A DNA stretch of 64,000 bases, taken from positions 744,001 through 808,000 of the forward strand of contig NZ_SJPX01000005.1 in assembly GCF_007860175.1 (NCBI RefSeq), written 5' to 3'. The stretch comes from Rubripirellula reticaptiva (GTDB lineage Bacteria > Planctomycetota > Planctomycetia > Pirellulales > Pirellulaceae). Below the pieces are notes generated by a model. That model worked only from the letters and a program-made list of their open reading frames with translations. It ran no database searches and was not told where the DNA came from. This document shows positions 4,196-55,300 of this stretch, one piece after another (positions within the stretch are counted from its first letter, which is position 1; each line of letters opens with the position of its first letter). A program made the position numbers and the translations under genes.

Positions 4196-4284
4196 CAGGG
4201 AGACGCTCTAGAAACAATAGACATAGAATGCTGCAGCCCGAGACGTTAAAAGAATCGACGCTGCAGCGAAAACTCATCCTGCGA

Positions 4285-4704
4285 TCAGCTCAGTGGCGCG
4301 TCTTTGAGCTTCCAATCGCCGTCCACCAGTTGCAATGTCCATCGCTGAGTGGAATGACTGCTACTCGAAGGCCGTCTTGCTTCGCGATCGCCCTTCTCTG
4401 AGTCAAAGACTCCACCAGTGATTGTGACGGGAATGATTGCCGTCTCACCTTCAAAGGTCCCAACTCCGCTGATGTCGTAGCCATACTTCGCATACGCCTC
4501 TCGATCCTTCGGTACGCTTCCAGCGACGAACGCTTCGTTAAAACGAGATTCGTCCGACGCCAAATCACCAAGTCCAGAAACTCGCGCGTACGCGTCTTGT
4601 TCGTTTGTCGACGAGAGTCCATCCCGCGAACCACAGCCGGTGATGAACGTCAGAAGCAAGACTGAAGCTGCCGTCGGCAACATTTTCGAAATGAAGATTT
4701 TCAT
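4285..4704 (-). CDS. small secreted lipoprotein, unknown function
   Basis: A 139-residue protein starting with a lysine-containing hydrophobic signal and a lipobox-like LLTFITGC followed by GSRDG, so it is probably lipid-anchored at Cys24. The mature part is short and polar. It has a YDISGVGTFEGETAIIPVTITGG-like beta pattern in the middle (shortened here) and ends in WTLQLVDGDWKLKD. It lies downstream of the DUF1559 gene on the same strand. Planctomycete genomes often pair DUF1559 proteins with a small lipoprotein of this kind, so co-function is likely but undefined. No catalytic motif was seen. Confidence 0.8.
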   Translation of the reverse strand: MKIFISKMLPTAASVLLLTFITGCGSRDGLSSTNEQDAYARVSGLGDLASDESRFNEAFVAGSVPKDREAYAKYGYDISGVGTFEGETAIIPVTITGGVFDSEKGDREARRPSSSSHSTQRWTLQLVDGDWKLKDAPLS

Positions 4705-4911
4705 TGATTGTTGGATAGTAGTTGTTGGTTATTTTCTAGAGATTGAACGCAGCGGAAAACATCCGTTGCGAAGGTTGATGACCGCGCGGCAGACCCTTGA
4801 CTTACCTAATGTGGACAGACTCGCCACGAGGCCAAAAGCTTTAGTTGCGGCGCCGCAAACTTCTCACTTTCCAGCTGCGGTCGAACCGGAAATTTAAGTC
4901 GCGTTTGACGA

Positions 4912-6081
4912 CTATTCCTGGATCACAACTTCGCTATTTTGGGCAGTCCCCATTGGCCGCCAAATGTTCAAATTGTCAACCGAATCGGTAACGAATCGCA
5001 CGGACCCGTCGGCCATCAGTGTGCTGACACCACCAACGTGATGACTGCGTGAAGCCGCGTAGACGTCCGGCGTATCGCGTTCCTGCAAACATTCCATGTA
5101 CGGAGTTTTGATCCCGACGATCGTCTCATCACAAGCTGCCAACGTGTCCTTTTCCTTTGAGTTCGGACTCAGGAATGTTGAAAAGATGCTCGCTCCCATC
5201 GCTGGCGACATCCAGACACCTCGAATATCTGATTTCGGCGATCCGCCGCTCAAATCCGACGCAACAATCTCGCTGATGGCAATCGTATTGCTTAGCCCAT
5301 CTAAGAAGTCGCGGCTCTTCATTCCTTGCCGTTGCTGGAAACGGTCGCCTGCGGAAACAGCACTTCCGCCTGAACCCGGATTGATGATTTTGTCCTGATC
5401 CACATAGTAAGTCCCGAACGCCCCACGGGTTTCGCTAGATTCCCACGACAACATGTTTCCCGATCCCCAAGATGCTGCATAGTTACAGCCTTTGGCGAGC
5501 GATTCCAAACCGTAGCTTCCATCAGTGAACTGGCTAGTCGGTGTCGGAGCTGAAGGGCAGCTGATGAACGACCCCAATTGATCGCGTCCAAAGTAATCAT
5601 TGGATTCCATCGACTCGCAGTGGTCACAAGGATTGGACGTGTGGTCGTCTGCGCGATCGTCTTCGCAAATCTCTACCTTTTCCCAAAGCCCTGGTTGTTC
5701 GATGAACGGAAACAGCATGGGAAGCCATGTCCAGCCCATTTCGTTTTGACCGTGCTGCCAACCACCTGTTTTGAATCGATTCCCCGGTTCGTCATAGTTG
5801 ACACTTCCAGGTGGAAACGCACCGTGAGTAGCCATGTGATTATGCATCGCCAATCCGAGTTGTTTCATGTTGTTCTGACACTGCATGCGTCGCGCAGCTT
5901 CGCGTGCCGCTTGCACCGCAGGCAGTAATAGTCCCACTAGAACTCCAATGATGGCAATCACGACCAATAGTTCGACCAATGTGAATGCAGGTCGATGCGC
6001 GGTGACACTCCGCTCTGAAGTTCCATGGCGCTGCTGTGGTCGTGCTCGCCTTGTCGCCATACCCATCAAGTTTCTCATCAA
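4912..6081 (-). CDS. DUF1559 pseudopilin-like protein
   Basis: A 389-residue protein. Residues about 32-60 carry a type IV prepilin N-terminal methylation signature (FTLVELLVVIAIIGVL) followed directly by LLPAVQAAREAARRMQC and NNMKQLGLAMHNH, the hallmark of the DUF1559 family. That family is greatly expanded in planctomycetes. The C-terminal third contains the family's H-X9-G block ending in MADGSVRFV. The signature implies cleavage by a prepilin peptidase and assembly or export by a type II secretion or type IV pilus-like machine. The cargo and role are not established. An alternative ATG 6 codons further in is possible. Confidence 0.95.
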   Translation of the reverse strand: MMRNLMGMATRRARPQQRHGTSERSVTAHRPAFTLVELLVVIAIIGVLVGLLLPAVQAAREAARRMQCQNNMKQLGLAMHNHMATHGAFPPGSVNYDEPGNRFKTGGWQHGQNEMGWTWLPMLFPFIEQPGLWEKVEICEDDRADDHTSNPCDHCESMESNDYFGRDQLGSFISCPSAPTPTSQFTDGSYGLESLAKGCNYAASWGSGNMLSWESSETRGAFGTYYVDQDKIINPGSGGSAVSAGDRFQQRQGMKSRDFLDGLSNTIAISEIVASDLSGGSPKSDIRGVWMSPAMGASIFSTFLSPNSKEKDTLAACDETIVGIKTPYMECLQERDTPDVYAASRSHHVGGVSTLMADGSVRFVTDSVDNLNIWRPMGTAQNSEVVIQE

Positions 6082-6480
6082 GGTTTTCCGATTTCTATTT
6101 GAAAGACAAATTTGTGTTCGACAAAAAATCGATCGACGGATGTCAAGATTTGTGGGGAAGGCCAGTCACCCAATCCAACCTCAAGTCCGTGTGTTCGATT
6201 TCCTGAATCGGGGCGGATTAAAACAAAGCCATATAAATTTGGAAGTTTGAACTGATGTGCAAATGATGAAGCGTTTTCACGATCACCTAGCGAAGAACAC
6301 AACGCGTCAGCATGGCACCCTCGACAAGCTTCAAGGGGGAACGACGCAACCTTGCACGACTGTGAAGGTCTCGAGAATTCCAGCTGATTTAGCAGGAAGC
6401 AAGCGAAACGAAGGTGCCAATCACTGTTTCCCCCTCAAGGGATTCCCAACCCAAGCAAGCCAACCTAGACAACGATGGCA
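6082..6480. other. non-coding region upstream of DUF1559 gene
   Basis: About 400 bases without a supported gene. It should contain the promoter of the DUF1559 gene on the minus strand. The reading frames in the 6257-6720 segment are not protein-like. The right part grades into the integrase remnant. Confidence 0.5.
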
Positions 6481-6632
6481 GAATCACGATGCAGGAAAAC
6501 GGGGCAGATCTGCGTTCGATTCAAACGCTGCTGGGTCACGAGAATTTGAACACAACTCAAATCTACACCCACGTCACGATTCAGCGACTCAGGGAAGTTC
6601 ACAAGCGAACCCAAGCGACCTTCGCAAGGTGA
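6480..6632 (+). pseudogene. tyrosine recombinase (integrase) C-terminal remnant
   Basis: The frame ending at 6632 encodes [18 protein letters not shown] followed by [18 protein letters not shown] and KRTQATFAR. This matches the extreme C-terminus of XerC/XerD and phage or integron integrases, including the LGH box and the catalytic Tyr in TTQIYTHV. Only about 45-50 residues remain: the core Arg-His part and the N-terminal DNA-binding domain are missing, and the sequence just before ENGAD looks scrambled. It is a remnant, not a working recombinase. It marks an old insertion event beside the broken toxin gene that follows. Confidence 0.85.
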
Positions 6633-6650
6633 ACATCAAACTCGGGAGAG

Positions 6651-7056
6651 TTGGTCGTGCCGTTTTTGCTGGATACGAATGCGTGGATTGGCCTGCTCAA
6701 GAATCCATCGAGTTCCGTTAAAACTCGCATTCAGACTTTAAGTCCAAGCGAAGTGGTAACCTGCTCAATCGTTCATGCTGAGTTGCGTTACGGTGCAGGA
6801 AAGTATGGCAATGTCCAGCGCCGCGTTCTTTTGATTGAACAATTCCTTGCACCATTTCGGTCAGTAGCATTCGACGATGATGTTGTCATTGAATACGCAA
6901 GGCTTCGCCATTCTCTGGATGGCGATGGGTAAACCGATCGGGTCGCTTGACACGATGATTGCAGCAAGTTGCCTGTCTCACCAATTCACGATCGTGACGC
7001 ACAACGTCTTTGAATTTTCACGAGTTCCTGGCCTAACCGTTGAAAATTGGCAGTGA
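6651..7056 (+). pseudogene. VapC-type PIN-domain toxin, frameshifted
   Basis: The first frame (6651-6932) encodes FLLDTNAWIGLLK, TCSIVHAELRYGAGK and EYARLRHSLDGDG, then meets TAA at 6930. The continuation in another frame from about 6931 gives KPIGSLDTMIAASCLSHQ and TIVTHNVFEFSRVPGLTVEN-WQ, ending with TGA at 7054-7056. Together they make an almost complete VapC of about 134 residues, with the acidic PIN residues D in LLDTN, E in AELRYG, D in SLDTMIAA and the THN...EFSRVPGL tail. One extra base near 6928-6930 would explain the break. VapC proteins are RNases held in check by VapB. No vapB was seen upstream, where the integrase remnant lies. Confidence 0.88.
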
Positions 7057-7742
7057 TGACGATTGCTCAACGCGAAGCGATCAGCGGCTTCGACGCAGAC
7101 ATCGACAACGATGCCACTGACGACTTGACATACCAGTGGGATGCCTTGCTTCGCCGTGTTAGGCGTGATGATGGCACGACGGCAAGCTCGTACGTGCAAA
7201 CAAGGGTTGCTGAGCCATGGACGCTGGCCGGGATCTATGCACACCGCGTCGAGCTTACGACAGAAGAAGCCATGAAGTTGTGTGACGATGCTCCCCAAGA
7301 TCGAGAGGGACGAAAGGCGTTCGATCGGCATTTGGACGATCGCTGCCAATGTTTTCGTTCGGCTTACCATCTGCTCGGCCCGGACGCGGATGGGGAAACA
7401 TTGATCACCTTGAAAATGACAAGGGCGATCAAAGTCGCTGGCCAAGTTCAAGTCAACGGAACTCCTCTCGCCAATGCATTTATCATGATTCACTCGAAGA
7501 AAACCGCGATTGATCAGCTTTTCCCCCGTTCGGCTCCGGAGCTAACTGATCATGAAGGAAAATTCAGCTGCTATTGCTTCCCCGGCGATCTCGACCAAGC
7601 ACGGATCGTCGCGGAACGGCCAAGTGGGAATCGAGTGTTGACCCTAAGCGACATTCAGCCAACGTCAACGGCAACGGGTATGATGTTTGAATTCGACACC
7701 GACGCGAAGGACTACGAAGTTGTCGGCAAACCGAAGCGTTAG
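7056..7742 (+). CDS. orphan protein with carboxypeptidase-regulatory-like C-terminal part
   Basis: A 228-residue frame from the ATG at 7056 (a TTG at 7047 is also possible). It begins without any signal peptide and overlaps the TGA of the vapC remnant as TGATG. Residues about 125-200 (VAGQVQVNGTPLANAFIMI, then DHEGKFSCYCFPGDL) look like a carboxypeptidase-regulatory or transthyretin-like beta-sandwich, usually found at the end of large secreted planctomycete proteins. The lack of a secretion signal and the position in a decayed island suggest it is the surviving 3' end of a larger gene. The reverse frame over it has no domain features. Expression is uncertain. Confidence 0.5.
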   Translation: MTIAQREAISGFDADIDNDATDDLTYQWDALLRRVRRDDGTTASSYVQTRVAEPWTLAGIYAHRVELTTEEAMKLCDDAPQDREGRKAFDRHLDDRCQCFRSAYHLLGPDADGETLITLKMTRAIKVAGQVQVNGTPLANAFIMIHSKKTAIDQLFPRSAPELTDHEGKFSCYCFPGDLDQARIVAERPSGNRVLTLSDIQPTSTATGMMFEFDTDAKDYEVVGKPKR

Positions 7743-7867
7743 TGGCAGGCAAAGAACTCTTGCGCGAGTGCTCTCACATTTGAAGCGAATTTCTGACGCA
7801 AATGAATCACTCTTTTGCTGCCGAGTGATCGGCGATGCTCGCGGTAGTCATCACAACCACAACAGCC

Positions 7868-9100
7868 TTACTCGCTTAACCATGTAACAGGCCAGGGTGA
7901 CTTGGTGAGAGCTTGCCGGGCGGTTGGCGAATCGGATGCGAACACGCGAACGTCGTCGGCAGAGAGCGTGCCGAGTTGCACGGTGGTGTTGATTCGCCAT
8001 TCTCGTTCGGCGCGCCAATCGTAGGTATTGCCCGCCGCTTGAAACAGGAAACGATCCGCCGGTGCGAGCTTCCTGCGACTCTCTGGTTCACCGTAGATCA
8101 CTGGGCGGCCGCCCATCGCCGCTAAAACCTGTTTGCGAACGGCGACTCCGAACGGTTCGTAGTCCCAGCGGCCGAGGTGAGGCCGAAAACAGCGTCGCTG
8201 CAGAATGTCGGCGAGGGGCAGCGCCGAAAAACAGACCACCGGCTCGGAGCGCGTCGTCGCGACGGCCGAAGCGATCAGACACTGCGACCGCACAATTCGC
8301 TCGAGTGCATCGATCGGACCACGGTGCGTCGCAGCGGGATGATCAACCAAGACCGAGTCTTGGTACTGAGACTCGGTTTCGCCTGGCCATGGTCCGTGAC
8401 GTGATCGGGTGCAGTGAATCAGCCATTGCCCGTCCGTCCGAGACCAGTCAGCATCGGGGGACGAGGATTTAGTTGGCGGTGGTCCCGCGAGCGTGGATTC
8501 GGCGGTTGAAGTTTGGGGAAGCGATGAGTTGCGACCGGCCAGATACCATCCGATCGCACCATCGGTGATCAACCTGTTGGCGGCGTCTTTTCTGCCGCCC
8601 ATGATCGCAACTCGAGTGGACGCGTCCCTAGAGAGGCTTAGTCGTTTTCGCAGGCAAGTCTCGACGTTGCCACCTCGCCGAACGTGAATGGCATCAACGC
8701 GATCGGCGATCGCAATCACGGCTGCGTCACGCGAGAGTTCTTCGCAATCAATGCGAACATCTGCGACGCTGTCGTCAACGGAGACCGTTACGAGCGGAAC
8801 GTCAAACAACGCCGCTGCTCGAACGGTCCAAGGTTCGATCGCTGATCCTCGCGCGACCACGACAGCACCGCCGAGGTCACGGCAATCGAGCATGCTACGA
8901 CACAGAAACTGACAAACGCGTTGATGCAGAAACACGTCGTGTCCCAGTCGGCTGCTGGTTACTGCGACAAGGGTTCGCGGAAACCGCAGGATGTCACGTC
9001 CATGAACTTCGGCAACTGATTCTTTGACACTACCGTTAGCATTGGCCCATCGCCGCATCCGCGCGATACGAACTTCGTCAGGCGCTGGTGACGGTGTCAT
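7868..9100 (-). CDS. unknown two-part protein with SLOG/DprA-like N-half and EREWR-containing C-half
   Basis: A 410-residue soluble protein. The N-terminal half (about 40-180) alternates beta strands and glycine turns: TLVAVTSSRLG, GGAVVVARGSAIEPW, DVPLVTVSV, then DRVDAIHVRRGGNVETCL. This resembles the Rossmann-like SLOG/DprA fold that binds nucleotides or DNA. The C-terminal half (about 270-400) has RPHLGRWDYEPFGVAVRK, RPVIYGE and WRAEREWRI, a pattern I associate with uncharacterised bacterial proteins but cannot name. No signal peptide or membrane segment. It lies 41 bases after the histidine phosphatase gene on the same strand. Both domain comparisons are by eye and the function is unknown. 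Confidence 0.7.
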   Translation of the reverse strand: MTPSPAPDEVRIARMRRWANANGSVKESVAEVHGRDILRFPRTLVAVTSSRLGHDVFLHQRVCQFLCRSMLDCRDLGGAVVVARGSAIEPWTVRAAALFDVPLVTVSVDDSVADVRIDCEELSRDAAVIAIADRVDAIHVRRGGNVETCLRKRLSLSRDASTRVAIMGGRKDAANRLITDGAIGWYLAGRNSSLPQTSTAESTLAGPPPTKSSSPDADWSRTDGQWLIHCTRSRHGPWPGETESQYQDSVLVDHPAATHRGPIDALERIVRSQCLIASAVATTRSEPVVCFSALPLADILQRRCFRPHLGRWDYEPFGVAVRKQVLAAMGGRPVIYGEPESRRKLAPADRFLFQAAGNTYDWRAEREWRINTTVQLGTLSADDVRVFASDSPTARQALTKSPWPVTWLSE

Positions 9101-43193: not shown

Positions 43194-45386
43194 TCACAGG
43201 TTTTGAACGAATTCGTCGGGTAGTTTGCCTTGATATCTAGCGTTCGCATATTGCCGGTACCAAGCTGTTGCGGTGGAAATCCACTGTCTTTGCGGCGGCG
43301 ACAAACTTGGTTGGATTGACGCCACGTGATCGTCAACTCGCTGGGCAAACTGGTACAGCGTTTCACTTGGACCGCGAACGAGCGACCATTTCTTCATTCG
43401 CCGATCGACGCGTGACAACCTTTTTCGACATTGCTGGTCGATCGCATGGATGCCGACTTGCGAAGGCTTGTAGAATTTTGTCCACCAAAAATAAATGAGC
43501 CCACAAACCAGCGGAATCTGGGCCAACCGAAAAAGTGTCATCAGGGTCTCGGTCACCCGCGCGGGCATGACCAAACCTAGCCAATACGTGTACCACGCCT
43601 CATCGTTACTTGACGATGTCTCATCAGAACCACCAGAGCGAGCCATTGCGCTGGCGGCATCCTGCAGAGGCGAGATCGTACGATAAGTACGACCCGGGGT
43701 CGATTCGACGGGAAACCACTGGCCAGTCGCATCGTCGTATGCTTCCGCCCAAGCGTGGGCGTCACGATTTCGGGCAATCCATTTCGTGTTGTCGTCACTA
43801 TGCTGCTCATCCACGACGTATCCCGTCAAGTATCGTGACGGCACACCGACCGATCGCAACATCAAAACGCTTGCCGATGCAAAGTATTCACAGTGCGCGA
43901 CGTGCCGGGTATCCAAAAAGTGAGCAACAGGGTCAACGCGACGTGGCGGAACGGTTTGATTGAGACCATAGACAAACTGCTGTTGAAAAAAGTCACTGAT
44001 CGCTGCGGCTTTCTCACGAGCCGATTCTTTACCGCGGCAGATCTCGGTCGTTGTCGACGCCAGCATTTCCTTCAACGACTGTGGGATTCTTTCGAGGAGA
44101 AATCGACGCTGACCGTCAAGCTGCTCGGGCGGAAGTTCATTGCTAATGCCAACTCGATACGGCACCGTCACGTCGACCCCCATCCGCACAATGCCATGCT
44201 GGGAAACGATCAGCTCGTTACTTTTCGACTCGATCCAACGAGTCGCAAGAGGCATGAACACCACCGCCCCTTTCATGGGATCGTTATGGACGTCCATTTC
44301 GACCAAGACTTCTTGTGCGTCTCGAGGATTCTTAGTTGAACTTTGGCGTCGCTTTGGATTCTGTAAATCAAAGTGTTTCAAGTCGCGACTGATACTGACA
44401 ATCGACCTTGACGCAGGAGACTCTGACGGACGAACCGTGAAGTCAATCATGTCAGCTTCGGCGGCGTCGTTCAATCGCAGATTGTTTGCCGATCGCCATT
44501 GACCAGATTGATAGTAATCGAATGCCGTTCCTCGCAAGTAGCCCGGTGCACGTTCAGAATCCACGATCAAGGCGATCGATGTTGGATCCGATGAGAGGTG
44601 TTTGCGAATCGATCCCAATCGGCTGCCGTTGACGTACATGAGTCCGCCGACGTACTTCGGACTAACGGTCGTGTCGATCGAAACTTTAAGTTGCTGCTGC
44701 AATGCGTTCTGGACACTAGGCAATGCATCAGTCGTCGCTCGGGCCACAACGCTGGTAGCCAACAACAAAGTTGAAATCGTAAGAACGGCAAAAACGGGAC
44801 TTGTACGGCGAGATTGTTCGGTCGGATCGCCGGGCCTGTCCGGCAGACCCATTGCCCGATTGCGTTTCGCTGAAAAAATGATCTGCGAGGCCGTACAAAA
44901 ACCGATGCAAACGATCAAGCCAACCGTCGTTTGTGCCGTCAGCGACCGGCTGACTCCCCCCGCAGCAACACACAACAAAACGACGATCATCCCCAAAGCC
45001 AGAAGCGAAACGTGGCCTCGATCGGGACGAAAGGTCCAAACCGCGAGAGACAAAAAAAAGCACGAGTGTGCCAGCACGTCAACGGCCAAATAAACCAAGT
45101 TGGCGGATCCGTTGATGCGACCACCAACACGCCAAACCGTAGTAAAAGCAACGATCAGTGCGATGGTCAAGAACAAAACCATCCATCGAATGGACCGAGA
45201 CGACGAGCCAAACCAACGATTATTTTCAGATGCCGGTCGAGATGTCGAGCGGTGATGTAAAAGCACCCATGCCAGTGGAAGTGCCGCCAGAATTCCTACT
45301 TGCAAGAAATCATTAAATGTCGATCCCAAGAACAGCATCTCGCCAAACAGAATCACACCGAGCAACGTCTTCGTACGTTCAAGCAT
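43194..45386 (-). CDS. TgpA-type membrane transglutaminase-like protein
   Basis: Product of 730 residues from the ATG at 45386, which has a GGAG site about 10 bases before it. Several hydrophobic segments (about 1-190, DUF3488-like) are followed by a large outside domain with the transglutaminase catalytic triad: Cys in RHVAHCEYFASASVLMLR, His in NRDAHAWAEAY, and an acidic residue in FPVESTPGR (Glu where Asp is common). A final membrane segment near 625-645 and a soluble tail (RKRLSRVDRRMKKWSLV) complete the TgpA layout. TgpA proteins are essential in some bacteria and are thought to process cell-surface peptides. It ends a MoxR-DUF58-TgpA operon. Confidence 0.92.
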   Translation of the reverse strand: MLERTKTLLGVILFGEMLFLGSTFNDFLQVGILAALPLAWVLLHHRSTSRPASENNRWFGSSSRSIRWMVLFLTIALIVAFTTVWRVGGRINGSANLVYLAVDVLAHSCFFLSLAVWTFRPDRGHVSLLALGMIVVLLCVAAGGVSRSLTAQTTVGLIVCIGFCTASQIIFSAKRNRAMGLPDRPGDPTEQSRRTSPVFAVLTISTLLLATSVVARATTDALPSVQNALQQQLKVSIDTTVSPKYVGGLMYVNGSRLGSIRKHLSSDPTSIALIVDSERAPGYLRGTAFDYYQSGQWRSANNLRLNDAAEADMIDFTVRPSESPASRSIVSISRDLKHFDLQNPKRRQSSTKNPRDAQEVLVEMDVHNDPMKGAVVFMPLATRWIESKSNELIVSQHGIVRMGVDVTVPYRVGISNELPPEQLDGQRRFLLERIPQSLKEMLASTTTEICRGKESAREKAAAISDFFQQQFVYGLNQTVPPRRVDPVAHFLDTRHVAHCEYFASASVLMLRSVGVPSRYLTGYVVDEQHSDDNTKWIARNRDAHAWAEAYDDATGQWFPVESTPGRTYRTISPLQDAASAMARSGGSDETSSSNDEAWYTYWLGLVMPARVTETLMTLFRLAQIPLVCGLIYFWWTKFYKPSQVGIHAIDQQCRKRLSRVDRRMKKWSLVRGPSETLYQFAQRVDDHVASIQPSLSPPQRQWISTATAWYRQYANARYQGKLPDEFVQNL

Positions 45387-46608
45387 GAGCCGCATACTCC
45401 GGCGCGCTAGAGGGATTACATTGAATGACGGTGACGTGGTTGAGAGAGAAAGCACGTTCGAATTCTTGCTGGCGCGTCGTCAGCAATAATGTGGGGCAGT
45501 GGCCGATCATTTCAAAGACGCCCGCAATACGACGATTGGCCGTGGCTTGGTCGACGGTTTCCGCGCCAGCCAATTGAATCAAAAGCGGTTCGCTGTCCGA
45601 AACCGCGTGTTGGTTGCGAGGTGCTATAAAAGACTCGGTCGATTCGTTGGTCACGTGCAAACGCAGCCGGACCTGGCGGTGACAAAGATCCGTTACAGCA
45701 ACGGCGGCCAACGACAACAGGCGTTCCAACACTGGATCCACGGTCTCGGCAGATTGTGGGCGATCGCGATCACTCGACGTGTCGACGATGATCGTGACCG
45801 TTTGAACCGATGGCGATTGATACTCGCGAACAATGGGGCGCCCCAGCCTAGCCCATGACGAAAAATCCCATCGCCGAACCGGCATGCCGACTTGATATTC
45901 GCGACTGCCGGTATAGTTCAACGCATCTCCGGAAAGCAACCGGTTTGACCATGCACCGATTGCACCGAGAACGGTTCCTGCGATGGGATCGTCCTCGTCA
46001 TCGATCAATTGTGGTGTGATCGCAATCGTTGTCTGCGAAGCCACAGCGTTGCTTGATCGAAACAAATAAAACGGAAACAGCGACTCGACCATTACATTGG
46101 GCAGCACAGCGATGCCGCGTCGCCCGCCCGACAACGTAAACGCAGCATCAACACGATCACGCGGCCGAATCGTCGCGAGCTGACACCGCTGAGACAACAA
46201 CTGGAATCTGAGGGGACGAGCGTCGCGTCGACGAGTCTTTTCAGGGACAAAACCCACCATCAGATCCATGGCCGGCAACCGCGATTCGTTACGAAGGTGC
46301 ATCGTGACCAAGAACGGCTGGTTCAAAGGTGCAGAGGTTGGCAACGAAAAGTCGACCTTTAGACGTGGACGTGCCAATCGGCTGCCCAGTCCACCAAGTA
46401 CAAGCATCGTCAAAGTCGCCGCAAAAACACCGACCCACGGGTAACCCCACACGATGTTCAGCGAAACGATCATGATCAACAGCAAAGTGACCGACGCACC
46501 GGTTAGCGAACGGCGAAACGCCAACAGCAACGTGATTGGCGAGATGACGACTCGGCCAACCAAAGCGACCCATCGCCATGGCGTGCTTGATGGTGCGATC
46601 GAGTTCAA
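45379..46608 (-). CDS. DUF58 domain protein
   Basis: A 409-residue protein with two hydrophobic segments near residues 10-70, then the DUF58 core YTGSREYQVGMPVRRWDFSS (shortened), in which REY and RxIxW-type residues are the family mark, and a vWA-like stretch VTIIVDTSSD. DUF58 proteins occur with MoxR ATPases and are predicted partners that present substrates to them. Its start overlaps the stop of the MoxR gene by 4 bases and its end overlaps the TgpA-like start by 8, so all three are coupled. It is predicted to face the periplasm or sit at the inner membrane. Confidence 0.9.
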   Translation of the reverse strand: MNSIAPSSTPWRWVALVGRVVISPITLLLAFRRSLTGASVTLLLIMIVSLNIVWGYPWVGVFAATLTMLVLGGLGSRLARPRLKVDFSLPTSAPLNQPFLVTMHLRNESRLPAMDLMVGFVPEKTRRRDARPLRFQLLSQRCQLATIRPRDRVDAAFTLSGGRRGIAVLPNVMVESLFPFYLFRSSNAVASQTTIAITPQLIDDEDDPIAGTVLGAIGAWSNRLLSGDALNYTGSREYQVGMPVRRWDFSSWARLGRPIVREYQSPSVQTVTIIVDTSSDRDRPQSAETVDPVLERLLSLAAVAVTDLCHRQVRLRLHVTNESTESFIAPRNQHAVSDSEPLLIQLAGAETVDQATANRRIAGVFEMIGHCPTLLLTTRQQEFERAFSLNHVTVIQCNPSSAPEYAAHA

Positions 46609-47750
46609 ACGGGCACCTCAACTTGGTCGACCAATTCACGAATGATCATGGCTGTTTCGCGATGGGGCATCGATGCACTGCGCGGCGAGACACGGTGCGC
46701 GATCGTTAGTTCCGCCATGGCTTGAATGTCATCAGGCATAACAAAGCCACGACCACGAAGCACCGCGTGCGCTTGTGCTGCGCGAAGCAACATTTTTGAT
46801 CCACGGGGACTGCATCCGATCCGCAGCCTCGAATCGACACGCGTCAAACTAACAATCTCGACCAAATACTCTGCTACCTTTCGGTCCACCGTCGCCGCTC
46901 GCGCCATCGCCTGCAATTCGATCAATTCATCACGGTTCATCACTGGCTTCAATGCACTGTGCGGATCGTCGGATGTACGATCAAGCAACATCTCTACTTC
47001 ACTGCTTGAGTCCGGATAGTCCATCGCCAACCTGAGCAGGAAACGATCGAGTTGCGATTCGGGCAACGGAAAGGTCCCTTCGAATCCACTTGGATTTTGC
47101 GTTGCGATTACCAAGAACGGTTGATTCAGTTTGTAACACTCGCCGTCAATCGTGACCTGTGATTCGGCCATCGCCTCTAACAACGCACTTTGCGTCCGCG
47201 GTGACGCTCGGTTGATTTCATCGGCAATCAGCAAGTTGCAAAAAATCGGTCCGGCTCGAAACTCGAACTTATTCGTCGCAGGTTGGAAAATCGAACTTCC
47301 CAAAATATCCGCTGGCAACAGATCGGGCGTGCACTGAACTCGTCCAAAGTCAAGGTCGATCAGGGCGGCAATTGATTTCGCGAGTGTCGTCTTGCCAACA
47401 CCGGGCACGTCTTCGATCAATAGCGATCCGCCGGCCAGTATCGCCGTCAGTATCGAATCAATCACCGCGTCTTTGCCACGAATGACACCGCGCAGTTTTT
47501 GCCGAACGAGATCGAGTTTTGCTAAGCGGGGATCATCCGTGATGGCCGCTTTGATCGGCGCGGTGGATGACGAGACCGAATCTTCGAGCGTTTTTCGTGC
47601 AAACAAGGGAACTGACTCTGGCCTAAATGAAGAAGTACGGACACGCCAGTGCAGACCAAAGGACGGTTGCCAGAACTGGATCGTCGCAATCCCGATCAAC
47701 GTAATCCTGTCTACGCAGTCCTGCGGACGCGATTGAATTGTACCGGACAT
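46605..47750 (-). CDS. MoxR-family AAA+ ATPase of the TgpA operon
   Basis: A 381-residue protein: Walker A EDVPGVGKTTLAKSIA, FGRVQCTPDLLPADILGS, Walker B LLIADEINRASPRTQSALLEAM (shortened), ATQNPSGFEGTFPLPESQ and the lid with RVSPRSAS. The ATG at 47750 gives about 75 residues before the conserved part and lies 6 bases after the trmH-like gene; a later TTG near 47606 would give a more typical length. The start is therefore uncertain. It is the ATPase of the MoxR-DUF58-TgpA module and should energise assembly or activation of a surface protein. Confidence 0.92.
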   Translation of the reverse strand: MSGTIQSRPQDCVDRITLIGIATIQFWQPSFGLHWRVRTSSFRPESVPLFARKTLEDSVSSSTAPIKAAITDDPRLAKLDLVRQKLRGVIRGKDAVIDSILTAILAGGSLLIEDVPGVGKTTLAKSIAALIDLDFGRVQCTPDLLPADILGSSIFQPATNKFEFRAGPIFCNLLIADEINRASPRTQSALLEAMAESQVTIDGECYKLNQPFLVIATQNPSGFEGTFPLPESQLDRFLLRLAMDYPDSSSEVEMLLDRTSDDPHSALKPVMNRDELIELQAMARAATVDRKVAEYLVEIVSLTRVDSRLRIGCSPRGSKMLLRAAQAHAVLRGRGFVMPDDIQAMAELTIAHRVSPRSASMPHRETAMIIRELVDQVEVPV

Positions 47751-48901: not shown

Positions 48902-49624
48902 ATGCCCATCCGAATTCTAGTTGTTGACCCCCATGAAATCACTCGTGCGGGAATCGGTCTTGCCTGCCAGTCACGCGAAGATCTGAAAATCGTTGGCGAA
49001 GTCGACTCGATTGACGAGGCGGTGCTTTTAACGCCCGAGACAAATCCGAATGTCGTGGTCATGGACCCTCGTTCTTGTGCCGGCGATGGCCTCGAAGAAC
49101 TGCTTCGATACCGCAATGCCTTCCCAGCGATCAAGATTTTAGCGTTCACTGGAAACGAAAATCCGGCGTTCGCGAAAGACGTCGTTGAATGCGGCGTGGA
49201 TGGATTCTTGATCAAGGATGCATCCGCCGACGAGCTCTGTTGGGCGATCCGAACCATTCATGCCGGGCGGATCTTCATCAGTCACTCCCACCACGGCGTT
49301 AGTTCGCCCCAACATGAAAAAACGGTTGATTCAAACATCCAAAAACGGGATGCCAACGCGTTGGAGCACCCGAATCATCTCGCGATGGAAAACAACCCAG
49401 ATGCCCAAATTGATCTGTCGACACGCGAACGGGAAGTCCTTGCCCTGATCGCCGACGGGATGACGAACAAACAGGCGGCTGCAAAGCTGTTCCTCAGCGT
49501 CAAGACTGTCGAAACGTATCGAGCTCGCGTGATGCGAAAGCATCAGTTGAAAGACCGAAGCGACCTTGTGCGATTCGCAAAGCGGCACGCGTCGAAAACA
49601 CTTGAATTGCAACCTACGGGGTAA
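48902..49624 (+). CDS. NarL/FixJ-type response regulator
   Basis: A 240-residue protein: receiver domain about 3-125, linker, and LuxR-type helix-turn-helix at about 175-235 (LSTREREVLALIADGMTNKQ, LFLSVKTVETYRARVMRKH, shortened). The phosphoacceptor Asp is in VVVMDPRSC and the Lys in FLIKDASADE. One of the two acidic residues before the phosphosite is altered: the usual VDDH reads VDPH, so metal binding may be weak. It has no kinase partner nearby. It lies 433 bases before the first secreted subunit gene and could regulate that locus. Confidence 0.9.
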   Translation: MPIRILVVDPHEITRAGIGLACQSREDLKIVGEVDSIDEAVLLTPETNPNVVVMDPRSCAGDGLEELLRYRNAFPAIKILAFTGNENPAFAKDVVECGVDGFLIKDASADELCWAIRTIHAGRIFISHSHHGVSSPQHEKTVDSNIQKRDANALEHPNHLAMENNPDAQIDLSTREREVLALIADGMTNKQAAAKLFLSVKTVETYRARVMRKHQLKDRSDLVRFAKRHASKTLELQPTG

Positions 49625-50057: not shown

Positions 50058-50576
50058 ATGAACTTCAAAACTACTTTCGTTGCTCTGATTCTCGCCACTA
50101 CCGCTGGTACCGCTTTGGGTCAAACCACTGCATCGCAAAAATTCACGGTCACCGTTCCCGGTGCGATCGCGATCACCGCGCCTTCCAACGTGACGATCGT
50201 CCACGATGAAAGTGAAATCGATCAAGTGTTCCCCGCTCAATCGTGGGTTGTCAAAGGCAACTCGTTGGCTGGTGTCACGGCATCGTTCGCAACTAGTCAA
50301 GCATTCCGTCACACCGTTGATCCAACTGCAAAACGCAACGCGACTTTGGGCTTGAGCGTCAATTCATCCGTTGGATCGGCCGCCTGGACCATTAGCCAAG
50401 CAACTGACACGACTGACTATGCCAACAACGACGGTGTTGCTACGGTTCAAGTTTCGTCCAACGGTTTCGGACGAGCGAACCTTGACCTTTCGGTCAGCTT
50501 CGTCACCAATGGCTTTGGATCGTTCCCAGCCGGTGACTATGAAACGACTGTCACTGGTACGGTGACAGCAAACTGA
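50058..50576 (+). CDS. small secreted beta-rich protein A (subunit-like)
   Basis: A 172-residue protein with a signal peptide (about 1-21, cleavage near ALG-Q). The mature part alternates strands and Ser/Thr/Asn-rich turns, with no Cys. It is clearly homologous to protein B at 54752: the shared blocks are ITAPxxVxIxHD, QxFPAQxWxVxGNS, AFxH, AKxxAxLxLSVxS and the closing GDYxxxVxxT. Length and composition fit a structural subunit of a surface fibre or coat. It is the first gene after a 433-bp leader, has a good ribosome site, and is followed at once by a very stable hairpin, which is often seen after a highly expressed first subunit. No named family is recognised. Confidence 0.85.
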   Translation: MNFKTTFVALILATTAGTALGQTTASQKFTVTVPGAIAITAPSNVTIVHDESEIDQVFPAQSWVVKGNSLAGVTASFATSQAFRHTVDPTAKRNATLGLSVNSSVGSAAWTISQATDTTDYANNDGVATVQVSSNGFGRANLDLSVSFVTNGFGSFPAGDYETTVTGTVTAN

Positions 50577-50609
50577 TATTTGACTTTTTCGATCTAAGAA
50601 CAACGGTTG

Positions 50610-50636
50610 CCGCCGCGTCTCATGGAGACGCGGCGG
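50610..50636 (+). terminator. perfect 12-bp triloop hairpin after subunit A
   Basis: CCGCCGCGTCTC (50610-50621) pairs perfectly with GAGACGCGGCGG (50625-50636) across the loop ATG, 34 bases after the stop of gene A and 32 before gene C. There is no T-run downstream (TGATTGCG). A stem this strong may act as an attenuator or protect the 3' end of the gene A message, keeping A more abundant than the later genes. Confidence 0.8.
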
Positions 50637-50667
50637 TGATTGCGTCTACAACTCGATCACGAACTTC

Positions 50668-51144
50668 ATGATCCACTGGAAACACCTTTTCATCGCCTTC
50701 GCAATCGCCACATTGACTTTCCAGGTCAGTGACGGCGATGTTGTTCGTTTAGGCGGAAACGGTGTGCGAGTTGACATGACCCCTATCCCTCAGTCGGGAT
50801 CGCAAAGCCTAACCGCTTCGGCCGAGTGCCGTGTTCGCGTCAACAACCGCCAAGCCCTGTTGCACTGGACAACGTCGACCTTTCGTCATATTCAGTACCC
50901 TGAAATCGAGAGTGACGCCACAATCGAGGCGACAGTGACCGGAACCTCTGGGATGGTCGACGCGTAACCGCGACGCCTCGTCAAACAAACAGACCGATCA
51001 GCCAACCGAAATGAAGCCGCCATTGCGATGGGCATCGCAGGCAACGGCGAAGTAAAAGTCAACTTGCGAGTCAGTATGGGAAACGCACAACCGGTCGAGG
51101 GCAACCACTGTGCAACTGTCGTGCTGACGATCACAGGACACTAA
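50668..51144 (+). pseudogene. third subunit-like gene C with in-frame stop
   Basis: The frame 50668-50967 encodes a signal-like start (MIHWKHLFIAFAIATLTF) and a beta-rich part, then meets TAA at 50965-50967. The same frame stays open for 58 more codons to TAA at 51142-51144 and there encodes a plausible tail: NEAAIAMGIAGNGEVKVNL, RVSMGNAQPVEGNHCATV and VLTITGH. That tail has the same pattern as the ends of proteins A and B (a G-x-L-x-L strand followed by the closing beta strand). So the gene reads as a 158-residue diverged paralogue interrupted by one stop codon near the position of the conserved Trp. It is either a recent nonsense mutation, a sequencing error, or programmed read-through. Confidence 0.75.
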
Positions 51145-51154
51145 AAGGACTTTT

Positions 51155-52861
51155 TTGACTCACGCAAGGATGCCCAAACGATCCACGCCCGAGACCGTCG
51201 CACAGTGTGTGATTGGGATCGTTGTTTGCATTGGCATCGGTGTCGGTTGCGCCTCGCGGCCACTGCCGACACGTCCTTCGATTGCTGAATTGGTTCAAGA
51301 TTCGCTCGACCATTCGATGCCCGAATTCGACATCAAATCGGCCAATCCATCAGACGACTTCGATGCGTCATCGATTCACCACGACTTGGCGCCCGGTGAA
51401 TCCATCATCGAGGAACAAATCATTGATGACCGCATCATCAGCGAACGGGTAATCAGCGATCAGGTAATCAGCGATCAGGCGTCCCAAGAAAAAACGCTCG
51501 GCCAATCGGTTACCGAGCACGCCGAATTGATTGACGTCTTTCCCCGATCCAGAGATGATCATCCGATCGAACGGGCGATGGGGTATGACGACTACTTCGA
51601 AGACAACGGATCTTCACGGCGGCGAAGCGTACGTCGAACTTCAAAGACGGCTGTCCAACAAACCCAAGGATATTTGGAAGCCGAAGAACCACTGTTGTTT
51701 GATGAAGAATTCATCGAGACCGATGTTCGTGAAGTCTTGCTGACCCTGTCGTCCGATGCAGGCATTGACTTAGTGATGGATGAAAATGTCCGCGGAGTCG
51801 TCAACGCACGAGTGCACAATTTGCCGCTCGATCGAGCGATCGAAAAGGTATTGATGCCGCTGGGGCTGTATTACGCCAAACGCGGCAACCAGCATTTTGT
51901 CGCACCGCCAGACCCGGAATCGCCACTATTTTCGTACATTGCCAGTCGTTCGGAGTACCGTCCCAAACACTTGGAAACGAAAGCTCTGATCGACACCGTG
52001 CCCAAGGGCCTCGTGCCGTTTGTGCAAGAAATCGCCGGCTCAAACTTGATCGTCGTCGAGGCACCGGACCAAATCGCACAGCAATTGATGGATCGATTCG
52101 CGGCGGTGGACCAACCGATTCCTCAAGTCGTCTTGGAAGCAATCATTTGCGTCGTCGAGCCGGACAGCGGATTTCAATTTGGACTCGATTGGCAGCACGC
52201 TGTCGAACTGAATGGTGAAAGCGCATTGAAACTTGGTGCGACCGGACTAGCACTCAGTTCCACCTACTCGAAAGCGGGTGCCGGCGCGATTTTCGACGAC
52301 TTTGCCAAGACGTCGACGTTCATCAAATTGTTGAACGAAAACGGATACCTGACCATTCGCGCGTCACCTCATGTGATGGCCCAAGACAACAAGAAGGCCA
52401 CGATCGCAATCAATCGCGAGACATTCTTTAGTGTCCAGCCACAATCGAGTGGCGCGACCGACAGCAGCGCATTTTTCTTTCAACAAGATATCCAAACGGT
52501 GCAATCGGGGATCAGTTTGGACATCACACCGCGCATCCGCGGTGACGTCGTCACCATCGATATTGAGAAAGCAGAAGTCAGCGAGGACGTCCGAACGGCG
52601 AATACAGAACTAGCGCTCAATCCGTTCCCAATTATCAATCGTCGTTCGGTCTCAACAACGGTTCACGTCAAAGACGGTAAAACCATTGTGATCGGAGGTT
52701 TAGTACAGCGAGAGACGATTGATAAGGTGAATCGGATCCCCGGATTAAGCAGGATTCCGCTACTGGGCTATCTTTTTGAAACGACACAACAACAAACCCG
52801 CGATGCGGAAGTTGTGATCTTTATCTCACCCAAAATCGTGAAGCCCGTTTGCACTCCTTAA
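51155..52861 (+). CDS. secretin-family outer membrane lipoprotein (GspD/PilQ-like)
   Basis: A 568-residue protein. The start is TTG at 51155, chosen because AAAGGA lies 5 bases before it, whereas the ATG at 51170 has no usable site. A lipobox-like GVGC (about 31-34) follows one hydrophobic segment. After a variable stretch with two VISDQ repeats comes an STN-like N-domain (FIETDVREVLLTLSSDAG, shortened; residues about 175-245), a second N-domain, and the secretin domain (about 330-560) ending with KTIVIGGLVQRETIDKV, IPLLGYLFETTQQQ and VIFISPKIV. Secretins form multimeric outer-membrane channels for type II secretion, type IV pili and phage export. Here the flanking genes encode small secreted proteins instead of pseudopilins. 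Confidence 0.93.
   Translation: MTHARMPKRSTPETVAQCVIGIVVCIGIGVGCASRPLPTRPSIAELVQDSLDHSMPEFDIKSANPSDDFDASSIHHDLAPGESIIEEQIIDDRIISERVISDQVISDQASQEKTLGQSVTEHAELIDVFPRSRDDHPIERAMGYDDYFEDNGSSRRRSVRRTSKTAVQQTQGYLEAEEPLLFDEEFIETDVREVLLTLSSDAGIDLVMDENVRGVVNARVHNLPLDRAIEKVLMPLGLYYAKRGNQHFVAPPDPESPLFSYIASRSEYRPKHLETKALIDTVPKGLVPFVQEIAGSNLIVVEAPDQIAQQLMDRFAAVDQPIPQVVLEAIICVVEPDSGFQFGLDWQHAVELNGESALKLGATGLALSSTYSKAGAGAIFDDFAKTSTFIKLLNENGYLTIRASPHVMAQDNKKATIAINRETFFSVQPQSSGATDSSAFFFQQDIQTVQSGISLDITPRIRGDVVTIDIEKAEVSEDVRTANTELALNPFPIINRRSVSTTVHVKDGKTIVIGGLVQRETIDKVNRIPGLSRIPLLGYLFETTQQQTRDAEVVIFISPKIVKPVCTP
51448..51477 (+). repeat. 15-bp tandem duplication inside the secretin gene
   Basis: GGTAATCAGCGATCA occurs at 51448-51462 and 51463-51477 and encodes two VISDQ units, preceded by a diverged one. 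It lies in the variable linker between the lipid anchor and the first N-domain. Confidence 0.85.
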
Positions 52862-52911
52862 TTAGTGCCACCGATTTCACTCTTGCCCCAAATCTAACCG
52901 AACGCACCGCC

Positions 52912-54609
52912 ATGCCTGCCCCACAGCGCAAGGGTGTTCGATTTCGTTTGAGCCTATCATTGGCTCTCGGATTGATCGCCGCCAACTCCACTTCGCTCGC
53001 CGAATCTACCACTTCCGCCAGTGTTGAAGATATCGGTGGAGGCGAAAAACGCGTGACCTTGTCCCAGTCTGTTGAACCGTCGTTTCATATTGAACCGATC
53101 GTGCATCGATTCGAAGCTCGTCGCGGCACGACGATTCCATTTCGGTTCGAAATTAAATCGACCGGCAAAGCAATGAATGTTACGGTCATGCCGGTACGTT
53201 TGCGTCAAGAAGTCACTGGCATCATTTTGCATGACGAACAAGGTGAAGCGCCGGATGAGATGAAGTTCTTGAGCCCGACTGAGTTCAAGCTCGAACCTGG
53301 CGAGTCGACGTTTTTGGTTGGTGAAGTCACCGTTCCGCTGGCAAAATCGAACTACCTTTCGTACGGCGTTCTGGTCCGTGACAACGGCTATGTGTCGGGT
53401 AAAACACCTGACCCAACCGATCCAACTCGAATCACTGCTGGGGTGCGGTTTGTGACCCAGTATGTGTTGCGAGTCGACATTGAAACGGGCGTCAAAGATG
53501 TCAGCCAGATGAACCAACTCGCTTTTGAACACGGCAGTGTGATCAACGAGCTTGGCATGCCTGTCGCAAAGACCTTTCTGATCAACCCAACTGACTTTGC
53601 GTTCGAATGCAGCGTCAGAGGTACCATTGAGTCAGCCACAACATCGCGTCCCAAGCCGTTTCGCTTATCACTTCCGTCCCGAGTCAACCTCGAAGGCGAA
53701 GAACGATACTTAGTGCGGATCATGCCTCGCAGCCGCGTGCAAGTCACTGCACCGGTGGAGGAACTGTTGTTTCCGGGTGAACAGTCACTGAAAGTTGAAG
53801 TAACCAATGGCCGCCGAGGCTTGGTCGACCAGACCTTTGCCGTCAACGTTGGGCAGGGTGATTTCCCAGCCCTCGAAGTCCAGCAAGCATACTTGGATCA
53901 TGAATTGTCCGTGCATCCGGCCCAAATCGCAGTCGGTGATGCAGCGGGTGTCAGTCGGTCCAACACACTGCGATTCACGAACAACTCGGTGCACTCGAAA
54001 AACATCGTGGCCGAACTTGTCGACTTGGCTGGCAATCCAGTCGACGACGTGCAGCTTTCGTCGGATTCCTTTGACGTTCGACCGGGCCGGACAAAGACGG
54101 TTCGGTTGTCGATTTCGTCACGCAACGACGCGGACGTGGCCAAGTATGGCGACATTAGGTTGAGGGTTCGTACGGGCGACGATCGAGAAATAGTTGAGTC
54201 GATTCCGATGGCGATGATCTTTGGGACCCCGGCGACTCCCAACCTAGAGGTTGGCGAGTTGGTGTCCGTCGAAAAGGACGGATTCACTTCCTTTGCAATG
54301 ACGGTCACCAATCTCGGCGAAGGATACGTACCCGTCCATGCTGATCTTCAGATCGGTGACGCGACGGGCAATTCGTTAGACTTGGCGGATGGATTTGGCC
54401 GCTGGCTGCGACCTGGCGAAACGCGTGAGCTGGCGTTCGTGCCACCGAAGATGATCGCCGCAGGTCAGTACCAGATCGTACTTAACTTGGTCACCACTCC
54501 CGACCAAGAACCAGTCCAGAAGACTTTGGTAATTGAATTGGATCCGAAAACAGCCGACGAGCAAGTCGCCGAACCGAAAGCAGCCACCGTAACCAACTCG
54601 CCAATATGA
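52912..54609 (+). CDS. large secreted protein with two PapD-chaperone-like regions
   Basis: Product of 565 residues from the ATG at 52912 (the frame also opens at 52849, where it overlaps the secretin gene). Signal peptide about 1-31. Residues about 48-200 follow the layout of pilus-assembly chaperone N-domains: IEPIVHRFEARRGTTIPFR, a hydrophobic strand, FLSPTEFKLEPGESTFL, YGVLVRD and RFVTQYVLRVDIE (shortened). A second, similar region runs about 335-460 (SNTLRFTNNSV, FDVRPGRTKTVRL). A third beta domain (about 460-560) resembles CARDB-type domains (MTVTNLGEGYVPVHADL). Chaperones of this fold donate a strand to fold fibre subunits in the periplasm. The protein lies 50 bases after the secretin stop. 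The chaperone role is inferred. Confidence 0.8.
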   Translation: MPAPQRKGVRFRLSLSLALGLIAANSTSLAESTTSASVEDIGGGEKRVTLSQSVEPSFHIEPIVHRFEARRGTTIPFRFEIKSTGKAMNVTVMPVRLRQEVTGIILHDEQGEAPDEMKFLSPTEFKLEPGESTFLVGEVTVPLAKSNYLSYGVLVRDNGYVSGKTPDPTDPTRITAGVRFVTQYVLRVDIETGVKDVSQMNQLAFEHGSVINELGMPVAKTFLINPTDFAFECSVRGTIESATTSRPKPFRLSLPSRVNLEGEERYLVRIMPRSRVQVTAPVEELLFPGEQSLKVEVTNGRRGLVDQTFAVNVGQGDFPALEVQQAYLDHELSVHPAQIAVGDAAGVSRSNTLRFTNNSVHSKNIVAELVDLAGNPVDDVQLSSDSFDVRPGRTKTVRLSISSRNDADVAKYGDIRLRVRTGDDREIVESIPMAMIFGTPATPNLEVGELVSVEKDGFTSFAMTVTNLGEGYVPVHADLQIGDATGNSLDLADGFGRWLRPGETRELAFVPPKMIAAGQYQIVLNLVTTPDQEPVQKTLVIELDPKTADEQVAEPKAATVTNSPI

Positions 54610-54675
54610 GTTGTTTGGCTTGGTGCTAGAGGTATCGATCTAGCGTTATAACCGGCTGATCTTGAACATTCCGAC

Positions 54676-54714
54676 AGGCCACGTTCATCCTTGCCGATGA
54701 CCGTGGCCTTTTTT
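54676..54714 (+). terminator. intrinsic terminator of the secretin/chaperone-like operon
   Basis: AGGCCACG pairs with CGTGGCCT, with an inner TCAT/ATGA pair and a loop of CCTTGCCG, followed by TTTTTT. It lies 67 bases after the stop of the chaperone-like gene and only 38 bases before gene B, so gene B may have its own promoter or receive read-through. Confidence 0.85.
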
Positions 54715-54751
54715 GTGGTTGTTGTACAGAGACCGGATCACAATCTTGACT

Positions 54752-55300
54752 ATGAATGGGCACAACTTCAGGGCATCCGCTTTCGCAATTGCGAGCGTGA
54801 TCGTAAATTCGGGCATCCCTTCCAACAGTCGAGCGGACGAACCACTCAACGCAGGTGTGCAAGCCTTCGTGGTTTCGGTGCCAACACGACTCGGCATAAC
54901 CGCGCCAGCACAGGTCAATATCACTCATGATTTGACGGACGCTGTTCAACGATTTCCGGCCCAGCAATGGTCGGTACGTGGAAATTCTCGCGGCGGCATG
55001 GTGATCGAGTTTTCGATCGCCAAAGCGTTTAAGCACCATCAAATCGAATCGGCCAAGAATGATGCTCGGCTGAGTCTTTCGGTCACCAGCACGGACGGGC
55101 CGGCAACTTGGCTTGTCACCCAGCCATCGGACCAAACGTCGCTGTCAAATGACGATGAAACCGCGGTCGTGCAAGCCACTTCGGATGACGTGGGGTCAGC
55201 GATGCTGGAGTTGAACGTCGACTTTGTCGCCGCGCCGTCGGTTTCACTTGCCACGGGCGACTACACCATGGAAGTCGTCTGCACGATTTCAACGCCCTGA
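54752..55300 (+). CDS. small secreted beta-rich protein B (subunit-like)
   Basis: Product of 182 residues from the ATG at 54752. The frame to 54713 overlaps the terminator and is less likely. Signal peptide about 1-29 (SNSRA-DEP). The mature part aligns along its whole length with protein A: FVVSVPTRLGITAPAQV, ITHD, RFPAQQWSVRGNS, AFKHH, LSLSVTSTDGPATW, and GDYTMEVVCTIST. One Cys near the end has no partner. It is a paralogue of A, separated from it by the secretin and chaperone-like genes and a terminator. It probably serves as a second subunit, tip protein or alternate form. Confidence 0.82.
   Translation: MNGHNFRASAFAIASVIVNSGIPSNSRADEPLNAGVQAFVVSVPTRLGITAPAQVNITHDLTDAVQRFPAQQWSVRGNSRGGMVIEFSIAKAFKHHQIESAKNDARLSLSVTSTDGPATWLVTQPSDQTSLSNDDETAVVQATSDDVGSAMLELNVDFVAAPSVSLATGDYTMEVVCTISTP

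Follow-up and report, generated by a model that had tools for sequence, protein, structure and literature searches.

Diderm bacteria build their donor-strand pili with ushers, and secretins belong to machines driven by ATP (type II and type III secretion, type IV pili, Tad) or to filamentous phages. Here we describe a locus in Rubripirellula reticaptiva (64,000 nucleotides of contig NZ_SJPX01000005.1, hereafter the window) that encodes a secretin (SEC), a secreted multi-immunoglobulin (Ig) protein (PAP) and a set of small secreted proteins (A, its paralogue B and a third copy, C). We consider it somewhat likely that A, SEC and PAP make up a chaperone–secretin system in which SEC stands in the usher's place. 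This best reading draws on the observed gene content, gene order, co-occurrence, separate secretin clade and lack of an usher in the genomes tested, together with predicted folds.

Chaperone–usher pili (alternate, or CFA/I, class; FimC, CfaB) resemble the module as predicted, in small Ig-like secreted subunits with an alternating N-terminal segment and a terminal beta-strand, and in an Ig-domain partner whose modelled fold resembles FimC among many Ig proteins; as in those pili, no ATPase stands beside the window's genes. Unlike them, the module has a secretin in the place of an usher, none being present in the 12 module genomes tested, and PAP is predicted to have about four Ig domains, against two in theirs. 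The WxL/WxLIP clusters of Gram-positive bacteria likewise combine one Ig-domain partner with small secreted proteins, and a PAP from outside the family matches WxLIP_PGBD as a protein, though below the cut-off in a genome search; unlike them, the module has a secretin, and the window's proteins match neither the WxL nor the WxLIP Pfam family at E≤1. For this kind of cluster, a passage of PMC10599100 describes a DUF916 strand inserted into WxL, as predicted by AlphaFold2 modelling. With the secretins of the type II secretion system (T2SS) and type IV pili (GspD, PilQ), SEC shares a secretin core and an N0/STN-like region; it differs in scoring below the curated cut-offs, in falling in a clade apart, and in having no ATPase or prepilin gene adjoining the window's copy. 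Finally, the TasA/TapA fibres of Bacillus, as a passage of PMC10151520 describes them, are donor-strand filaments of beta-sandwich subunits with a strand-complementing partner; their host is Gram-positive, they have no secretin, and their likeness to the module is one of description.

Each known kind tested has a defining feature that the module lacks (an usher; a GspD-type secretin with adjoining machinery; WxL domains), and it may still work like chaperone–usher pili. A text search of the Creative Commons (CC)-licensed PubMed Central (PMC) literature found no description of a chaperone–secretin system, in keeping with the initial annotation of this DNA, which knew of no described system with this gene set.

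Gene content and conservation

The genes of the module lie in the window as follows:
50058–50576, + strand: A, 172 amino acids, with a start that looks signal-peptide-like by eye
50668–50967, + strand: C, a third, diverged copy of the A family, frame-broken
51155 (TTG) or 51170 (ATG) to 52861, + strand: SEC, a secretin (Pfam Secretin)
52912–54609, + strand: PAP, a secreted multi-Ig protein, PapD/WxLIP-like by AlphaFold2 and Foldseek
54752–55300, + strand: B, a paralogue of A by similarity and putative second subunit (ATG at 54752; searches and alignments used 54761 onward)

All five thus share one strand within 50058–55300, as the initial annotation had it. A, B, C and PAP are above the cut-off of no curated family (Pfam, NCBIfam).

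A is found in the same 24 of 149 family genomes as SEC (E≤1e-60), and the other 125 have neither. PAP occurs in 25 of the 149, namely all 24 with A and SEC plus G116, where the match is weak (62 residues inside a 1741-amino-acid frame). A Fisher p of 3e-28 for the co-occurrence ignores shared ancestry, and the 11 genera (of 68) to which the 24 genomes belong are the fairer count. On this co-occurrence we rejected the possibility that the genes are chance neighbours. SEC and PAP are same-strand neighbours in all 24 genomes (PAP being divided over two contigs, L059 and L060, in G126), and A adjoins the pair in 21, ahead of SEC in 18 and solely after PAP in 3; in G115 the contig starts within SEC. 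A PAP motif scan of contigs from 84,980 species gave 23 loci, which overlap in part with the 24 family genomes and all carry planctomycete titles. In 22 of them SEC is next to PAP, and the remaining one is cut within PAP. The initial annotation had let its proposal hang on conservation of the gene order in relatives, and the order is conserved, at loci outside the family as well. A, SEC and PAP are inherited together as a unit.

Genes of the A family also lie at a distance from the module (G142:C257, G103:C1:5266552, G137:C73/C15, G115:C272/C274, G126:C395), and in several genomes these are putative subunits encoded elsewhere.

SEC–PAP pairs occur in other classes of the phylum. Two PAP profiles run against 392 phylum genomes matched 5 (R. 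reticaptiva included) and 8 genomes, with a union of 8 when R. reticaptiva is left out, and a SEC relative adjoins PAP at 7 loci in 6 genomes from outside the family (L097, L098, L099, L100, L126, L127, L129; loci outside the family are hereafter called far, those within it near). Near and far PAPs are related (492 columns, hhalign 99.7%, E 6e-26), and in those of the modules read that have a secretin, PAP is 413 to 580 amino acids long. Small secreted proteins, their signal sequences assessed by eye or with a crude measure of hydrophobicity, stand by the far PAP and SEC in L097 and L127 (three each), L100 (two), and L126 and L099 (one each); L129 has a candidate beside the module, and L098 begins at PAP. 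From their sequences, the near and far small proteins do not appear clearly related. Searching 343 genomes by the secretin profile on its own (E≤1e-40) gave 6 genomes, 2 of them new; G503, G506 and G450 are not among the genomes listed and may not have been sampled. One genome found via the secretin alone, G296 (L170), has the order SEC, two small secreted proteins, PAP, with a PAP profile E-value of 2e-11 and weak matches of the small proteins (best E 1e-3 and 0.09, far profile); in G187 (L171) the contig starts at SEC and the neighbours are uninformative.

Three far loci have features of their own. In L097 (11899–12429) the start of SEC is in a different frame from its body, from a broken gene or an assembly error. 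L098 carries, at 3679–8999, the module and then an alanine-zipper lipoprotein, a prepilin-like gene and a GspE-like ATPase. L128 (4920–9620) has several small secreted proteins and a short PAP-like protein (294 amino acids), with no secretin up to the contig end, and is possibly a WxL-like cluster in a planctomycete.

The secretin, the small proteins and PAP

The initial annotation called SEC a secretin-family lipoprotein. SEC matches Pfam Secretin with an E-value of 8e-42, and its Gly31-Cys32, which 90% or more of the 23 secretins aligned share, is consistent with a lipoprotein. The protein runs from the lipobox-like Cys through a long linker, an N0/STN-like region (STN match E 5e-5, at 23.4 bits below the cut-off of 28.4) and an N1-like region, seen by alignment, to a complete secretin core. 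It scores under the NCBIfam cut-offs for GspD (TIGR02517, 161/351 bits), PilQ (TIGR02515, 147/284), MshL (139/250) and SctC (110/238). We built a tree of 50 secretins, of which 25 are PAP-linked (18 near, 7 far) and the remaining 25 come from the genome of R. reticaptiva and six far ones. It leaves out seven second copies of secretins from far modules, five module rows with close relatives in the set, two other secretins judged partial (L157, L159) and three others without a usable profile match (L008, L149, L162). A branch with support 100/99 sets all 25 PAP-linked secretins apart from the rest; some far sequences sit on long branches, so that their order within the clade is unsure. In this tree the PAP-linked secretins form a secretin family of their own.

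The initial annotation had seen no usher, pseudopilin, prepilin peptidase or ATPase gene here, and our searches for ushers, ATPases and prepilin-like genes agree. The usher family (PF00577) is found in 0 of 12 module genomes, R. reticaptiva included, with E. coli alone, the control, being positive; the 12 were drawn from ~31 module genomes, and 8 of them are at least 90% complete. No T2SSE-family ATPase is encoded in the window, the nearest match on the same contig being ~373 kb off, and a GspE query had no match among the open frames of the window and of 48 near loci but did recover its control, L066 (E 6e-110). Across the near set 5 frames carry the prepilin motif, none of them beside the window's module, and the window's sole prepilin-like match, at 4912–6081, lies away from it.

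A and B had been described as two small signal-peptide proteins that align, and so they do, with 42% identity over 144 residues (E 2e-32). The third copy is likewise present but frame-broken: C stops early in the window, similar sequence runs on out of frame to ~51145, and the profile match contains one internal stop. C is intact in L037 (180 amino acids) and L038 (160 amino acids), with an open copy in L044 too, so that the window's copy appears frame-broken or mis-assembled: either the gene of a minor subunit is decaying, or the assembly is in error here.

AlphaFold2 predicts A to be a single-domain beta-sandwich (pLDDT, the predicted local distance difference test, 89.4; alignment of 28 sequences). 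In a Foldseek search of the PDB with this model, the top four matches are all CfaB of CFA/I pili (E 5e-4 to 8e-4; template modelling (TM) scores of 0.44–0.51), followed mostly by donor-strand pilins (CS17, Fim subunits) and archaeal cannulae, which are known as donor-strand fibres. Near the N-terminus, positions 29, 31 and 33 of the A family are hydrophobic in 27/27, 23/27 and 25/26 sequences, as against 5/27 and 7/27 for positions 30 and 32; the model assigns no strand to this alternating segment (29–33). At the other end, a Gly-x-Tyr/His motif places its Gly 14 residues from the C-terminus in 26 of 28 A-family rows. That Gly would fit what we take to be the C-terminal motif of pilins (Gly 14 from the end and a penultimate Tyr), of which the Tyr is absent from the A family; we found no support for the motif itself in CC-licensed PMC text. 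None of A, B and C has a Pfam match to the WxL domain at E≤1. From its model, A is predicted to be a donor-strand pilin-like subunit.

The PAP model (pLDDT 82; alignment of 24 sequences) has about four beta-domains, with strands read by eye, making two PapD-sized pairs. The initial annotation had seen two PapD-like regions; PAP has no PapD Pfam match at E≤1. FimC and Enterococcus WxLIP are within the first 50 Foldseek matches, with TM scores (TMt) of 0.51–0.54 against the ~200-residue chains of FimC-containing entries, which we took as FimC, and 0.42–0.48 against WxLIP. The most conserved 10-mer, residues 180–189, comes after a conserved strand (148–157) and a low-confidence loop (~161–180), at what is presumably the place of the F1–G1 loop and donor strand of PapD chaperones. 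One far PAP (L100) matches PapD_N under the cut-off, with an E-value of 0.17. PAP is a predicted chaperone for A and B.

Flanking genes and transcript features

Two further features on the plus strand lie near A:
48902–49624, + strand: a LuxR-type response regulator, upstream of A (Pfam Response_reg 4e-14, GerE 2e-18)
50604–50642, + strand: a hairpin directly after A, with an 18-bp stem and a 3-base loop

The regulator is likely to control the module; regulator-like genes are also upstream in L037, L038, L039, L040 and L042, with one open frame between the response regulator and the module in L039 and L040. The 90 bases after A have a folding z of -4.9, and z is below -3 after 10 of the 25 A genes folded. 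The hairpin is possibly an attenuator or mRNA stabiliser favouring A over SEC and PAP; as a minor point, a strong hairpin in this place would fit an excess of the major subunit. A promoter and terminator scan gave nothing beyond what shuffled sequences give. By eye, the gap between PAP and B holds, at 54660–54720, an inverted repeat and then a T run that is absent from the terminator-scan list, and this suggests that B is a separate transcript.

Just downstream of PAP, 7 loci have a secreted protein, related between them, on the opposite strand (L045, L047, L049, L050, L051, L053, L054). Among three that were scanned, one has a PEP-CTERM tail above the Pfam cut-off, and there is a nidogen-like match just under it; the protein is possibly an adhesin or partner. 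The remaining flanking genes differ from genus to genus. On the minus strand of the window, 43194–47750 holds transglutaminase and DUF58 genes (Pfam) and then what we take to be an AAA ATPase gene, in a row; such a row is a common bacterial cluster.

Function of the module

The secretin as an outlet for subunits held by PAP, which the initial annotation had proposed, is our best reading and is partly supported. For the complementarity of subunit and chaperone, on which that annotation had also let its proposal hang, the support is indirect: the CfaB-like model of A, with its N-terminal segment outside any strand, and the likeness of PAP to FimC and WxLIP among many Ig proteins. A, B and C would enter the periplasm by the Sec route, each as an Ig-like fold left incomplete by its own N-terminal segment. 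PAP would hold them much as PapD or WxLIP chaperones do, probably lending its conserved strand at ~175–191, and would dock on SEC, a lipid-anchored secretin serving as the outer-membrane outlet. On exit, donor-strand exchange would link the subunits into a thin fibre, and an ATPase would be unneeded, as in chaperone–usher pili. PAP–A binding, docking, export through SEC, polymerisation and the energy source are the parts of this scheme that we infer. The fuller proposal, that the module is a self-contained, ATPase-free pathway building donor-strand fibres in Planctomycetota and a candidate for some planctomycete fibres of unknown make-up, is a tentative one that we would rather doubt than assert.

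A number of observations weigh against the chaperone–secretin reading, and those that favour a rival are taken up with it. A is on a separate contig from SEC and PAP in 3 of the 24 genomes (G115, G137, G126). Three of the five A models have pLDDT values of 70–78; the E-value with CfaB is no better than 5e-4, and the superposition has a root-mean-square deviation of ~15 over the full alignment; and the A and PAP profiles each find no credible match among PDB sequences, with one chance-like match apiece. The absence of a PapD Pfam match from the window's PAP points the same way. Outside the family, L128, L130, L131 and L132 have a PAP-like match and no secretin that we could find, some of these loci being short or ending soon, and the far small proteins match the A profile over 35 C-terminal columns alone (71%).

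WxL and WxLIP proteins are thought to form a static surface complex in Gram-positive bacteria, and we regard it as unlikely that the module does the same, with SEC exporting A and/or PAP into a static complex and no fibre being formed. WxLIP is among the structural neighbours of PAP, and one of six far PAPs (L098) passes the WxLIP_PGBD (PF06030) cut-off as a protein, with 31.4 against 27.3 bits. The same gene falls under the cut-off in the genome search, at 23.1 bits, and across the phylum PF06030 is matched at E≤0.01 in 10 of 392 genomes and above the cut-off in none. PAP of the window gives no match to WxLIP at E≤1 and shows, by eye, no C-terminal transmembrane helix, and the best structural matches of A are fibre-forming pilins.

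It is also improbable, in our view, that SEC is a special secretin of a T2SS encoded elsewhere, with A and PAP as its substrates. The genome has 12 T2SSE-family matches, which could serve SEC in trans, and such a gene lies within 5 kb of only 1 of its 9 secretin matches, so that a scattering of T2SS genes seems to be the norm here. The initial annotation would have taken an adjoining T2SS ATPase as refuting its proposal, and none adjoins SEC; because most other secretins of the genome likewise lack an adjoining one, this is weak evidence and not special to SEC. Two modules do have such genes near them: L098 has prepilin-like and GspE-like genes within 4 kb after SEC, and L044 (= L075) has a prepilin-like gene at 7548–8588, on the same strand and ~510 bases after PAP. 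Against a T2SS role stand the position of SEC below the GspD, PilQ, MshL and SctC cut-offs and in its own clade, and its strict co-occurrence with A and PAP. From the secretin scores, clade and neighbours, we judge an ordinary T2SS locus to be the less likely reading.

Very unlikely, we think, is a purely structural PAP, acting as an Ig-repeat partner or a periplasmic plug of the secretin, with A as an adhesin or cap that PAP tethers. Ranked by E-value, the Foldseek matches of PAP are headed by ciliary and other long Ig proteins, none of them chaperones, so its fold match is not specific, and the size of PAP varies. Its most conserved stretch nevertheless follows a low-confidence loop at the presumed donor-strand place of PapD, and it co-occurs with a pilin-like protein. 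An ordinary chaperone–usher locus was rejected, no usher being present in any of the 12 module genomes tested out of ~31.

According to passages of Boedeker et al. (2017; PMC5394234), large crateriform structures bear 12-nm pili-like fibres. A link between these and the module is only a suggestion: the word secretin is absent from the text of that paper, and none of the 23 PAP-motif loci is titled Planctopirus or Gemmata, the genera studied in the passages concerned. If our reading is true, some planctomycetes would have a separate secretion pathway in which a donor-strand-type subunit, a chaperone-like partner and a secretin work together in genomes without an usher. It would be a new way to build bacterial surface fibres, joining the chaperone–usher, WxLIP and secretin worlds, and it would make testable both the action of a secretin without an ATPase and the make-up of some of the pili-like fibres of planctomycetes.

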